38,322 nucleotides of DNA, from the NCBI GenBank assembly GCA_913051775.1, contig CAJXCL010000016.1:1-38322 (forward strand). The letters are read 5' to 3'. This DNA is from an uncultured Nitrospirota bacterium. GTDB lineage: Bacteria > Nitrospinota > Nitrospinia > CAJXCL01. The notes under the pieces were generated by a model, which saw only the letters and a program-made list of their open reading frames with translations, searched no databases and was not told the DNA's origin. The translations under genes and the position numbers were made by a program. Below are positions 7,489-11,825 of the stretch, piece after piece. Numbering within the stretch: position 1 is the first letter of the stretch; each line of letters begins with the position of its first letter.

Positions 7489-7980
7489 ATGGAAAATGAT
7501 AAAAACCCGATTGCCAATCCCGTGATAGTCCTCCGGGAGGAATTTGATGACTGGGCCGTTCTCTTTGATCCGGATTCCGGTGATGCTTTTGGGCTGAACC
7601 CGGTAAGCGTATTTATATGGAAGCTCCTGGATGGCACACATAATGACAGGGATCTTTTAAATAAGTTGCTCGAAAAATGCAAAAATGTTCCTGAAGAAGT
7701 GGAAAGTGATATTACAGAATTCGTAAATGACCTTGTAGAACGAGGGTTTGCAGGTTACGAAACAACCGTCGAAGAAAGGAGATTTGAGATGGATGACAAA
7801 GAGCTCACATATGAAAAACCGAGACTCCTTATACTGGGGGCCTCCGATTCGGGAGCATCTGATAATGCCGAGCCAGAGGACAGCGCCATGTGTGACGTGG
7901 GTCAGGCAGCTGCTTACATATGCGGCCTCGGATTCTCCCCGGCTTTGCTATGTGGCGAAGGAGCCGGTGATGAGGGATGA
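7489..7980 (+). CDS. scmD: PqqD-family (ScmD-like) protein fused to a Cys/Gly-rich precursor-like tail
   Basis: A 163-residue protein. Residues 8-95 form a PqqD/RRE domain: NPVIVLREEFDDWAVLFDPD, then FGLNPVSVFIWKLLDG and a helical C-terminal half. Such domains bind leader peptides of RiPP precursors for radical SAM enzymes. The family resemblance is to ScmD of the SynChlorMet cassette, recalled from memory. Most PqqD proteins end near residue 95. Here an in-frame tail of about 63 residues follows, with an acidic leader-like part and the end CDVGQAAAYI-CGLGFSPALL-CGEGAGDEG. Cys135, Cys145 and Cys155 are exactly ten apart, and each opens a C-x-x-G unit. The tail therefore looks like a RiPP core attached to its own recognition domain. 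Two radical SAM genes follow. Confidence 0.75.
   Translation: MENDKNPIANPVIVLREEFDDWAVLFDPDSGDAFGLNPVSVFIWKLLDGTHNDRDLLNKLLEKCKNVPEEVESDITEFVNDLVERGFAGYETTVEERRFEMDDKELTYEKPRLLILGASDSGASDNAEPEDSAMCDVGQAAAYICGLGFSPALLCGEGAGDEG
7777..7782 (+). promoter_or_regulatory. Internal Shine-Dalgarno site before Met101 of the PqqD fusion
   Basis: AGGAGA lies 6 bases before the ATG at 7789, inside the PqqD reading frame and in frame with it. The main start at 7489 has no such site. This could drive separate synthesis of the tail. Confidence 0.5.
7789..7980 (+). CDS. Candidate stand-alone precursor peptide from an internal in-frame start
   Basis: If translation starts at Met101 of the PqqD fusion, the product has 63 residues. 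It would begin MDDKELTYEKPRLLILG, continue with a Ser/Asp/Glu-rich stretch and end with the three C-x-x-G decads. Size, acidic leader and Cys/Gly-rich C-terminus are all usual for precursors modified by radical SAM/SPASM enzymes that form thioether or other Cys-linked crosslinks. The strong ribosome site is direct evidence; that a separate peptide is made is inference. The alternative is that only the fusion is made and modified in cis. Confidence 0.4.
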   Translation: MDDKELTYEKPRLLILGASDSGASDNAEPEDSAMCDVGQAAAYICGLGFSPALLCGEGAGDEG

Positions 7981-8041: not shown

Positions 8042-8113
8042 ATGAATGAAGAAGAGCTAACCACTATTTTTATTAGCTCGGAAATGCTACAAAAAAGCGT
8101 AATAGTTGAATGA
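8042..8113 (+). pseudogene. Internally deleted four-helix-bundle ORF remnant
   Basis: A 23-codon frame reads MNEEELTTIFISS and ends in TGA overlapping the next gene's ATG. Its first codons match the start, and the rest matches the C-terminus, of the four-helix-bundle pseudogene at 9256-9610; about 285 bp between them are missing. The upstream flank (8010-8041) also resembles 9224-9255. The frame may still help translation of the radical SAM gene by ATGA coupling. Confidence 0.6.
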
Positions 8114-9222
8114 AATCTAAAATGAGAATAATGAAAACACCCAAAACTGTGGATCTGGATATTACAAACCAATGTAACCTCCGGTGCAAATATTGCTTTC
8201 ATTTCACCAGTGCCGGTGATGTTGACATCGACCTGCCTAAAGAGGGGTGGTTTCAGTTTTTCGAGGAATTAAACCGCTGTGCTGTAATGGAAGTTTGTCT
8301 CACTGGAGGGGAACCTTTTTACCGGGAAGATTTAAAGGAGCTTATAGATGGAATCGTCCGCAACCGGATGCGATTTTCCGTTCTCAGTAATGGAACGCTG
8401 ATTACGGATGATACAGCAGCCTATCTGGCATCCACCGGGCGATGTAACTCAGTGCAGGTTTCTATTGACGGATCCGGGACAGAACCTCATGATACCTGCA
8501 GGGGAAACGGAAATTTTCTAAAGGCGATGGCAGGGATAAATAATCTCAAAAAACATAACGTTTCCGTTGCCGTTAGAGTTACTATTCATAAACATAATGT
8601 GTGGAACCTTGAGGAAGTTACCGAGCTCTTATTGGATGAGATCGGTCTCCCCGGTTTTTCCACAAATGCGGCCTCTTTTTTTGGGCTTTGCTCAAAAAAT
8701 GCGGCTCAGGTACAGCTCACAGTAGAAGAGCGTTCCATTGCGATTAAATCACTGATTAGACTGAATAAAAAATACAATGGCCGCATAAACGGGGCAGCGG
8801 GACCTCTGGCAGAGGGAAGGATTTGGGTTAGAATGGAAAAGGCACGGTTACATAAAGAGAATTGTCATCCGGGCAGGGGACGGCTTACGGGCTGCGGTTG
8901 TCCTATGAGCAAAATTGCCATACGCTCGGATGGCGCGATTGTTCCCTGCAACATGCTAAGTCATATAAAGTTGGGCCAGATAAATAGGGACAGGCTTCAG
9001 GATGTATGGCTTAACCATCCGGAAATGAGAAAGTTAAGGGTACGGCGTAATATCCCTTTGAGAGATTTCGAGTTTTGTAATGGATGCGAATATATTAATT
9101 ACTGCACCGGTAATTGCCCGGCATTGACTTACACCATGTTGGGCAAAGTCGATCACCCCAGCCCGGACGCTTGTCTCAGGAAGTTTCTGGATGATGGGGG
9201 GAAACTACCCGTTTCATATTAG
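8110..9222 (+). CDS. scmE: Radical SAM/SPASM peptide-modifying enzyme, ScmE-like
   Basis: A 370-residue enzyme. DITNQCNLRCKYC holds the CxxxCxxC motif (Cys22, Cys26, Cys29) for the SAM-binding 4Fe-4S cluster. LTGGEPF is the GGE motif that contacts SAM, and VSIDGS follows. The C-terminal SPASM region has CGCPMSKIAIRSDGAIVPC, then CNGCEYINYCTGNCP and a late Cys, enough to bind two auxiliary clusters. Enzymes of this build crosslink or epimerise ribosomal peptides. The resemblance to SynChlorMet ScmE is from memory of that family. The ATG at 8110 overlaps the upstream remnant's stop. In-frame ATGs at 8122 and 8131 are alternatives, and MKTPKTVDLDIT from 8131 looks like the natural domain start. 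Confidence 0.85.
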   Translation: MKSKMRIMKTPKTVDLDITNQCNLRCKYCFHFTSAGDVDIDLPKEGWFQFFEELNRCAVMEVCLTGGEPFYREDLKELIDGIVRNRMRFSVLSNGTLITDDTAAYLASTGRCNSVQVSIDGSGTEPHDTCRGNGNFLKAMAGINNLKKHNVSVAVRVTIHKHNVWNLEEVTELLLDEIGLPGFSTNAASFFGLCSKNAAQVQLTVEERSIAIKSLIRLNKKYNGRINGAAGPLAEGRIWVRMEKARLHKENCHPGRGRLTGCGCPMSKIAIRSDGAIVPCNMLSHIKLGQINRDRLQDVWLNHPEMRKLRVRRNIPLRDFEFCNGCEYINYCTGNCPALTYTMLGKVDHPSPDACLRKFLDDGGKLPVSY

Positions 9223-9610: not shown

Positions 9611-10738
9611 ATGAATTCTAAAATCAAAAATCTAAAGTCTAAAATGAAATTAAACCAAATCTACTTTTATCTCACCGAAGGATGCAACCTTACCTGCCGT
9701 CACTGTTGGATGGCGCCGAAATTTCAGACAGAGAAAACCATCTACCCGGCGCTGGGGTTAGACCTGTTCCGATCTATTATTGAGCAGGCCAAACCGCTGG
9801 GACTTTCCGGCGTCAAGTTAACGGGTGGTGAGCCGCTGATGCACCCGGGAATAGGTGATATTTTAGAGCATATCCGGATGGAAAATCTTCGTCTCACCAT
9901 AGAAACCAACGGTCTCCTCTGTACGCCCGAACTTGCCCAAAAAATAAAGGAATGTAAAAAACCCTTTGTATCGGTGAGTCTGGATGGTGCAAACGCTAAT
10001 ACCCACGAATGGGTAAGGGGTGTGGAGGGTTCTTTTGAGGACGCAAAAAATGGAGTCAGGAATCTCGTAAAAGCCGGACTAAAACCGCAGATTATTTTAT
10101 CCGTTATGCGTTGCAACAAGGATCAGATGGAAAAGGTTGTGCGGCTTGCTGAATCTCTTGGCGCAGGCTCGGTGAAGTTCAATCTTGTGCAGCCAACCAT
10201 GAGGGGTGAGAAGATGAGTAAGGCGGGAGAGACTTTAACCATAAAGGAGCTTGTGAGCTTAGGGCTGTGGGTGGAAACCACCCTTTCAGATTCAACAAAT
10301 TTAAGGCTTATTTACCACCACCCTCCTGCTTTTCGACCTCTGGGCAAAATATTTGGCAATAACAGAGTCGGGAACGGAACTTGCGGAATCCTGGGAATTT
10401 TAGGGGTTCTGGCAAACGGTTCTTATGCCCTTTGCGGTATAGGGAAGTCTGTTAAGAATCTTGTTTTTGGTCATGCCTGTAAGAATCGGCTTGAGGACAT
10501 TTGGAATAATACGCCCGTTCTTCAGGAGCTTCGTGAAGGCTTGCCTAGTGGATTGAAAGGTATATGCGGCGACTGTATTATGAAGAGCCGTTGTTTAGGA
10601 AGCTGCGTGGCGCAAAATTATTACCTCAGGAAGAACCTTCTTGCCCCTTTCTGGTATTGTGAGGAAGCCAGAGCGCAGGGGCTTTTCCCGGAAAGTCGGC
10701 TGCGACCGGAGGCAAATAATTGCAGATTGATGATTTAA
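9611..10738 (+). CDS. scmF: Radical SAM/SPASM peptide-modifying enzyme, ScmF-like
   Basis: A 375-residue second radical SAM enzyme. LTEGCNLTCRHCWMAP carries Cys25, Cys29 and Cys32; VKLTGGEPLMHP is the SAM-contacting motif, and TIETNG and VSLDGA follow. The SPASM part has a Cys in GTCGILGILG, a Cys in YALCGIG, CGDCIMKSRCLGSC, and a late Cys in WYCEE. It resembles SynChlorMet ScmF from memory. The first 11 residues (MNSKIKNLKSK) come from low-complexity filler like that at 10740-10800, so the true start may be the ATG at 9644. With the PqqD fusion and ScmE-like enzyme it forms a two-enzyme peptide-maturation set. Confidence 0.85.
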   Translation: MNSKIKNLKSKMKLNQIYFYLTEGCNLTCRHCWMAPKFQTEKTIYPALGLDLFRSIIEQAKPLGLSGVKLTGGEPLMHPGIGDILEHIRMENLRLTIETNGLLCTPELAQKIKECKKPFVSVSLDGANANTHEWVRGVEGSFEDAKNGVRNLVKAGLKPQIILSVMRCNKDQMEKVVRLAESLGAGSVKFNLVQPTMRGEKMSKAGETLTIKELVSLGLWVETTLSDSTNLRLIYHHPPAFRPLGKIFGNNRVGNGTCGILGILGVLANGSYALCGIGKSVKNLVFGHACKNRLEDIWNNTPVLQELREGLPSGLKGICGDCIMKSRCLGSCVAQNYYLRKNLLAPFWYCEEARAQGLFPESRLRPEANNCRLMI

Positions 10739-10841: not shown

Positions 10842-11825
10842 ATGTTAGGAAAGCAGATCAAAGAATTGCGGCAAAAAAATAAAATATCTCTGGAAGAACT
10901 CGCTCATAAATCAGGTCTTTCAGTGGATACCCTGAGGTTAATTGAACAGGATGATATAGAGCATATTGAGGATTCCAGGCTTCTCAAAATTGCCGATAAC
11001 CTCTGCTTAAAAAGTGCTCTTGATTTTGCCTGTTTGATGAAAACTAATAAAGCCTTTAGAAGATTCCATGCATACGTTGTTGGTCTACCTAAAACAGGAA
11101 CAGTATCCCTTGCAGCTGTTTTTGGAAACTATCGTTCGCTCCATGAATTTCACCAGAGGGAAACACATCAAGAGATCATTAAACTGAATCAGGGGCAGAT
11201 TTCGAAAAAGGAGTTTTCTCAATTCATCAGAAAACGCGATTTTTTGGCTGGGTTCCTGGAAATGGATGCCGCGCATTTTAATCGTCATTATATAGATATT
11301 CTCGCTGAAGAATTTCCAAAAGCTAAATTTTTATGCCTTATTCGTGACTGCTATTCCTGGGTGAATTCTTGCGTTAACTACTACACCCATCCTGAAAAAG
11401 AAGCCTTGGAGGTTTCTGAACTTCCCAACGGAATGCCTTTTGACCTACCCATAGGATCAAACAGCCAGAAAGATGAACTAAAAAAAAATTTTCATAAATA
11501 TATTGATGTCCCCCTTATATTCTGGACAACTGAATACAAAAAGATATTAGAAAAACTTCCTCCCGACAGGTCCATGATAATCAAAACAAACGAGATTTCA
11601 GCAAAACTGGACGAAATAGCCCGGTTTTTGAATGTATCCTATAATTCTTTATTTACAGAACAGTCTCATCTCAATAAAGCAAAGTATGGGGTTGGGATCC
11701 TTTTTAGCCTGGATATGGATTTTCTGGAAGCAAAGTTCAGGGAGCATTGTTCTGATTTGATAGAAGAATTTTTTCCCGATTATTCTCTCCAGGATTATTT
11801 CAAGGGGAAAAAATTGTGGCAGTAA
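10842..11825 (+). CDS. XRE-type helix-turn-helix domain fused to a sulfotransferase-like domain
   Basis: A 327-residue protein. Residues 1-56 are a Cro/CI-type HTH (KQIKELRQKNKISLEELAHKSGLSVDTLRLIE). After a short linker, residues 76-320 resemble PAPS-dependent sulfotransferases. VVGLPKTGTVSL at 79-90 fits the 5'-phosphosulfate loop. CLIRDCYSWVNS at 165-176 fits the 3'-phosphate motif with its R-D and S. WTTEYKKIL and the following region complete the fold. Sulfotransferases of this group act on sugars, lipids or peptide tyrosines. A joined HTH is unusual and could bind DNA or serve as a protein-docking domain. It follows the radical SAM genes on the same strand, so sulfation of the cassette product is possible, as an inference. 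The ATG at 10842 is the only sensible start. Confidence 0.7.
   Translation: MLGKQIKELRQKNKISLEELAHKSGLSVDTLRLIEQDDIEHIEDSRLLKIADNLCLKSALDFACLMKTNKAFRRFHAYVVGLPKTGTVSLAAVFGNYRSLHEFHQRETHQEIIKLNQGQISKKEFSQFIRKRDFLAGFLEMDAAHFNRHYIDILAEEFPKAKFLCLIRDCYSWVNSCVNYYTHPEKEALEVSELPNGMPFDLPIGSNSQKDELKKNFHKYIDVPLIFWTTEYKKILEKLPPDRSMIIKTNEISAKLDEIARFLNVSYNSLFTEQSHLNKAKYGVGILFSLDMDFLEAKFREHCSDLIEEFFPDYSLQDYFKGKKLWQ

Follow-up and report, generated by a model that had tools for sequence, protein, structure and literature searches.

The open frame 7489-7980(+) of the window, by which we mean the whole analysed stretch of 38,322 nucleotides, encodes 163 amino acids and raises two related questions. What is the Cys-rich tail that follows its PqqD-like domain: the substrate of the adjacent enzymes, or an extension with some other role? 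And are the domain and the tail produced as one polypeptide or as two? In the best reading, scmD, which encodes the leader-binding PqqD-like domain, is here fused to scmA, the gene for the precursor in a SynChlorMet RiPP cassette, and an internal start is probable. We put the probability that the tail is the precursor of the cassette at about 0.85.

Structure of the gene and its neighbours

The features discussed below are as follows.

7489..7761, plus strand: ScmD domain (PqqD-like RiPP recognition element), residues 1-91; matches TIGR04248 and PF05402
7762..7788, plus strand: linker TTVEERRFE, not found in other ScmDs; holds the Shine-Dalgarno-like site
7776..7781, plus strand: AAGGAG, Shine-Dalgarno-like
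7789..7980, plus strand: putative precursor of the ScmA type (63 aa), continuing the ScmD frame, assigned by profile score; possible own start at Met101
7810..7836, plus strand: putative leader recognition motif YEKPRLLIL, residues 108-116, of the form [YW]xxPx[L], common to separate precursors
7891..7977, plus strand: putative core, three C-x-x-G decads, read directly; the C-x-x-G units and spacing of separate precursors agree
8110..9222, plus strand: ScmE, radical SAM/SPASM enzyme; TIGR04250, 603.5 bits (cut-off 400)
9611..10738, plus strand: ScmF, radical SAM/SPASM enzyme; TIGR04251, 596 bits (cut-off 400)

The ScmD model TIGR04248 matches residues 8-91 at 130.3 bits (cut-off 100), with 84 of 84 model positions covered and no frameshift inside the domain, which is also matched by PF05402 (59.6 bits). 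Thus, ScmD, ScmE and ScmF all score above the respective cut-offs; in the earlier note a PqqD-type domain was placed beside two radical SAM/SPASM genes. In both enzymes CxxxCxxC and the seven conserved C-terminal (SPASM) Cys residues are intact. At approximately residue 255, just before the first SPASM Cys, the window ScmF has Asn, where 90% of its relatives have Cys.

The 163-aa product has Cys at positions 64, 135, 145 and 155, and Met at 1, 101 and 134; it ends with CDVGQAAAYI CGLGFSPALL CGEGAGDEG. Re-reading of the frame reproduced exactly the description given for these last 29 residues, that is, Cys 135/145/155, the strict 10-residue period and the C-x-x-G start of each unit, while the leader motif YEKPRLLIL and the Shine-Dalgarno-like site before Met101 are additional to it. 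When the 72-residue tail is shuffled, the Cys residues fall at exactly the 10/10 spacing in 0.09% of cases, and three C-x-x-G units lie 8-13 residues apart in 0.0045%; the leader motif occurs in 0.11% of shuffled tails and in 0.4% of 72-aa pieces taken from long frames. A single-sequence structure prediction for the whole protein had a mean pLDDT of 35.

Several other components were sought around the cassette. No match to ScmC (TIGR04249; an HprK-related protein) was found at E 0.1 in this genome, whose completeness is only about 96%. A lasso leader peptidase and an asparagine-synthetase-like cyclase are absent among the ten neighbouring proteins scanned. At 10842-11825, 103 nt downstream of scmF, the window encodes a fusion of an HTH domain and a sulfotransferase-like domain; we rejected it as a member of the cassette, as it has no homologue near the 20 cassette loci compared.

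Related cassettes and their separate precursors

A scan of genome contigs with ScmE yielded one relative, L022, and the wider sampling was then centred on its genome. L022 is a Desulfobacterales MAG that has ScmE, ScmF, a 51-aa ORF (MMKWQKPELIDLAMATFDQACVEGNSVNFNMCGPVGSAALSTCNEGSGVVE), ScmC (TIGR04249, 276 bits) and an S26-type signal peptidase; a similar peptidase was not found in the genome of the window in a search that, having no positive control, was weak. ScmD was found in 19 of 390 genomes from the class of L022, 17 of 395 from its phylum and 5 of 85 from another class, these sets being overlapping. In the window's own phylum no other ScmD was detected among 77 genomes, and nothing was found in the viral contigs searched.

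A common gene order in the relatives is ScmD-ScmE-ScmF-small ORF-ScmC-S26, with variations. For example, in L087, L088 and L089 the precursor genes lie upstream of scmD, not after scmF. A separate small ORF near scmDEF is present in 28 related cassette loci of other genomes, commonly between scmF and scmC. These ORFs share one plan, comprising a leader with [YW]-x-x-P-x-[L] and then two to nine C-x-x-G units. The strict leader motif is seen in 26 of 27 separate precursors, and 107 of their 125 Cys residues (n = 27) belong to C-x-x-G, the unit often being extended to C-x-x-G-[SGN]-x-[AP]. The spacing of ten residues between Cys, for which a check beside scmE and scmF in other genomes had been proposed, is indeed the commonest one, followed by 11 and 9.

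Some loci deviate from this plan. The L059 precursor (L059:6395-7075) is long: behind its seven C-x-x-G units comes a stretch of over 100 residues rich in Ser, Pro, Glu and Lys. In L084 there are two precursor-like frames (L084:7324-7704 and L084:8572-9309), both unusually Cys-rich, with fragmented ScmC- and ScmF-like matches in the vicinity. L053 contains a second, diverged set, including a PqqD-like domain fused to an ScmE-like radical SAM protein (L053:6249-7706) and, upstream, a small Cys peptide with a KPxL leader (L053:5057-5260).

Does the tail belong with the separate precursors?

The tail has each element of an ScmA-type precursor as defined from the separate ORFs, namely the leader, C-x-x-G units about ten residues apart, and the position beside scmDEF. 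Two of its units, CDVGQAA and CGLGFSP, also fit the extended pattern. A profile of the separate ORFs, built with the window excluded, gave the tail 25.7 bits, whereas none of 10,000 shuffles exceeded 12.5 bits and unrelated frames among 5,066 reached about 11 bits; every frame scoring above the tail was a precursor ORF of another cassette. This profile includes one automatically collected and probably false precursor, L056:6739, which was left out of the motif and locus counts. An earlier, smaller profile yielded 26.1 for the tail versus 11.0. The tail scores below five other precursors likewise outside the profile. It has only three units, which are more hydrophobic than those of the separate precursors, and the spacer between the leader and the core is 27 residues long, compared with 14-28 elsewhere (median 19).

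The earlier note had described the SynChlorMet precursor as unidentified; this is not supported, as NCBIfam already includes TIGR04252 (SCM_precur_ScmA, cut-off 35 bits). The tail is not matched by this model even at E 10. Ten separate precursors tested with it reach at most 25.4 bits, hence the model is narrow.

One could suppose instead that the tail is a Cys-rich C-terminal extension of the recognition protein, for instance a metal-binding one, and not a substrate. Regularly spaced Cys residues could bind metal, and in a genome of this completeness the real scmA could be missing. However, the tail matches the separate precursors in order, leader motif included, far above chance, and no ScmA-like place was found elsewhere in this genome, the fused tail being the sole one; we regard such an extension as very improbable. 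As the profile match far exceeds chance, the leader and the C-x-x-G decads are common to the tail and the separate ORFs, and the genome has no other ScmA-like place, the tail is most likely the precursor, in line with the role of substrate suggested for it before. A separate conserved precursor gene in related cassettes, which had been named as an argument against that role, does exist, but its product resembles the tail and thus supports the assignment. A protein of the ScmD kind ordinarily does no more than hold a peptide while two radical enzymes modify it. Judged from the sequences, the relatives encode this peptide as a separate gene, and the fused arrangement is an unusual variant of the known SynChlorMet pathway.

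One polypeptide or two?

The in-frame ATG at 7789 (Met101) is preceded, 7 nt upstream, by AAGGAG. In 27 window genes there are 205 further internal ATGs in frame, and AGGAG occurs 4-10 nt ahead of none of them, while four of the 27 gene starts have it; the starts of several separate scmA genes are likewise preceded by GGAGG or AGGAG. Moreover, ScmD homologues end just before Met101, and a TGA in another frame (7785-7787) directly precedes the ATG. Thus, the region looks like scmD, a ribosome site and scmA in succession, with the scmD stop removed, and a one-base indel, arisen in evolution or in the assembly, could explain the joining. Since none of the other internal ATGs in these genes has such a site, a nested, separately translated precursor is likely, and the precursor is probably also made alone from the internal start. 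The earlier description of the domain and the tail as one entity therefore stands as regards the single open frame, but does not by itself establish a single polypeptide, given the strong internal start.

A stronger form of the fusion reading holds that the 63-aa peptide is made only or mainly from ATG 7789 and acts in trans, as in other SynChlorMet cassettes, the read-through form having no role. The ribosome site, similar to those at several scmA starts, and the ends of the ScmD homologues favour it; yet the domains are not separated by a stop codon, so ribosomes starting at scmD must produce the fusion. We give this form a chance not far below even. That the fused product is a true self-substrate seems possible but rather doubtful: in this case the domain would hold its own leader in cis and feed its own C-terminal core to both radical SAM/SPASM enzymes, and the mature peptide would possibly stay attached, as neither ScmC nor a cassette protease was found.

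All 41 other ScmDs found are tail-less. Thirty-seven aligned ones stop 1-15 residues beyond the point where their match to residues 1-91 ends, and the four further ones, whose open frames span 99-116 aa, have no room for the tail; hence the case raised earlier as adverse, ScmD homologues with the same tail but without conservation of the Cys residues, does not arise among them. The fact that all of them stop early is also what one would see if a sequencing or assembly error, a one-base indel in the contig, had joined two adjacent genes, scmD and scmA. The position of the out-of-frame TGA would suit an ordinary scmD stop that overlaps the ribosome site of scmA, and the fusion is known from a single genome with no second assembly. 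Both domains are, however, intact and in one frame, and no frameshift is seen within ScmD, which makes an error of this kind unlikely.

In the tree of ScmE and ScmF the window is sister to L049 and L052 (support 0.987) and is nested among other cassettes; L049 and L052 each have a separate precursor. On this evidence from sequence comparison, the fusion of scmD with scmA is derived, and so far it is unique, being carried by one genome. A Desulfobacterota-like donor is the probable source of the cassette.

Proposed mechanism and implications

By analogy with the lasso-type recognition proteins acting on YxxPxL leaders, the ScmD domain would bind the YEKPRL motif, either in cis or in trans between copies, and may present the three C-x-x-G decads to ScmE and ScmF. 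At each Cys the two enzymes would most likely make a link, with a thioether as the leading guess. Part or most of the precursor may be produced as the separate 63-aa peptide from Met101, in which case the 163-aa form could serve as a self-substrate or a carrier. The chemistry and the binding in cis are less certain than the identity of the tail, and removal of the leader lacks an explanation, as ScmC is absent and no peptidase like that of L022 was recovered in the weak search.

The SynChlorMet cassette has been annotated, yet is unstudied in the literature searched, where no paper was found to mention SynChlorMet, TIGR04252, or ScmE/ScmF in connection with radical SAM. Through the fusion the precursor is linked directly to its cassette, and from the 28 loci with separate precursors the features of the substrate can be read: a leader of the YxxPxL type, then C-x-x-G decads. 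With the substrate so defined, the chemistry of ScmE and ScmF becomes directly testable. For peptide engineering, a recognition domain fused to a core would in addition offer a natural model of substrates that present themselves.

Comparison with known systems

The closest system is the SynChlorMet (SCM) cassette itself (NCBIfam TIGR04248-TIGR04252), with which the locus shares ScmD, ScmE and ScmF above the cut-offs and the [YW]xxPxL leader with C-x-x-G repeats. It differs in the fusion of the precursor to ScmD, in the lack of a detectable ScmC in the genome and in the tail being missed by TIGR04252.

In sactipeptides and ranthipeptides, Cys thioethers to the alpha, beta or gamma carbon are made by radical SAM/SPASM enzymes. 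The likeness consists in SPASM enzymes, recognition of the PqqD-like type and a precursor with repeated Cys; the enzyme and precursor families are different, and here the cross-link is a presumed one. To our knowledge, a recognition domain fused to its own precursor has not been described, and a limited literature search turned up no such case. The domain fusions described in passages of the two RRE-Finder papers are to enzymes or other proteins, and none is to a precursor.

ScmD is similar in sequence to the lasso recognition proteins TbiB1 and TfuB1 and to a PqqD family protein. Lasso leaders carry YxxPxL (PMC10368454), and recognition proteins of the PqqD-like kind bind W/Y/LxxP motifs (PMC12710340). 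Lasso systems with a discrete recognition protein (TbiB1, TfuB1, FusE; PMC10368454, PMC12710340) thus resemble the present locus in the PqqD-like protein and the YxxPxL-type leader, whereas here radical SAM/SPASM enzymes replace the lasso cyclase, the core is a Cys repeat, and the precursor is fused to the recognition protein.

Finally, in Type I-III borosins (OphMA) the precursor core is fused to the C-terminus of the catalytic methyltransferase (PMC8429565). The position of the core at the C-terminus of a biosynthetic protein is the same in both cases, but here the core is joined to a recognition domain without catalytic function, and separate genes encode the enzymes.
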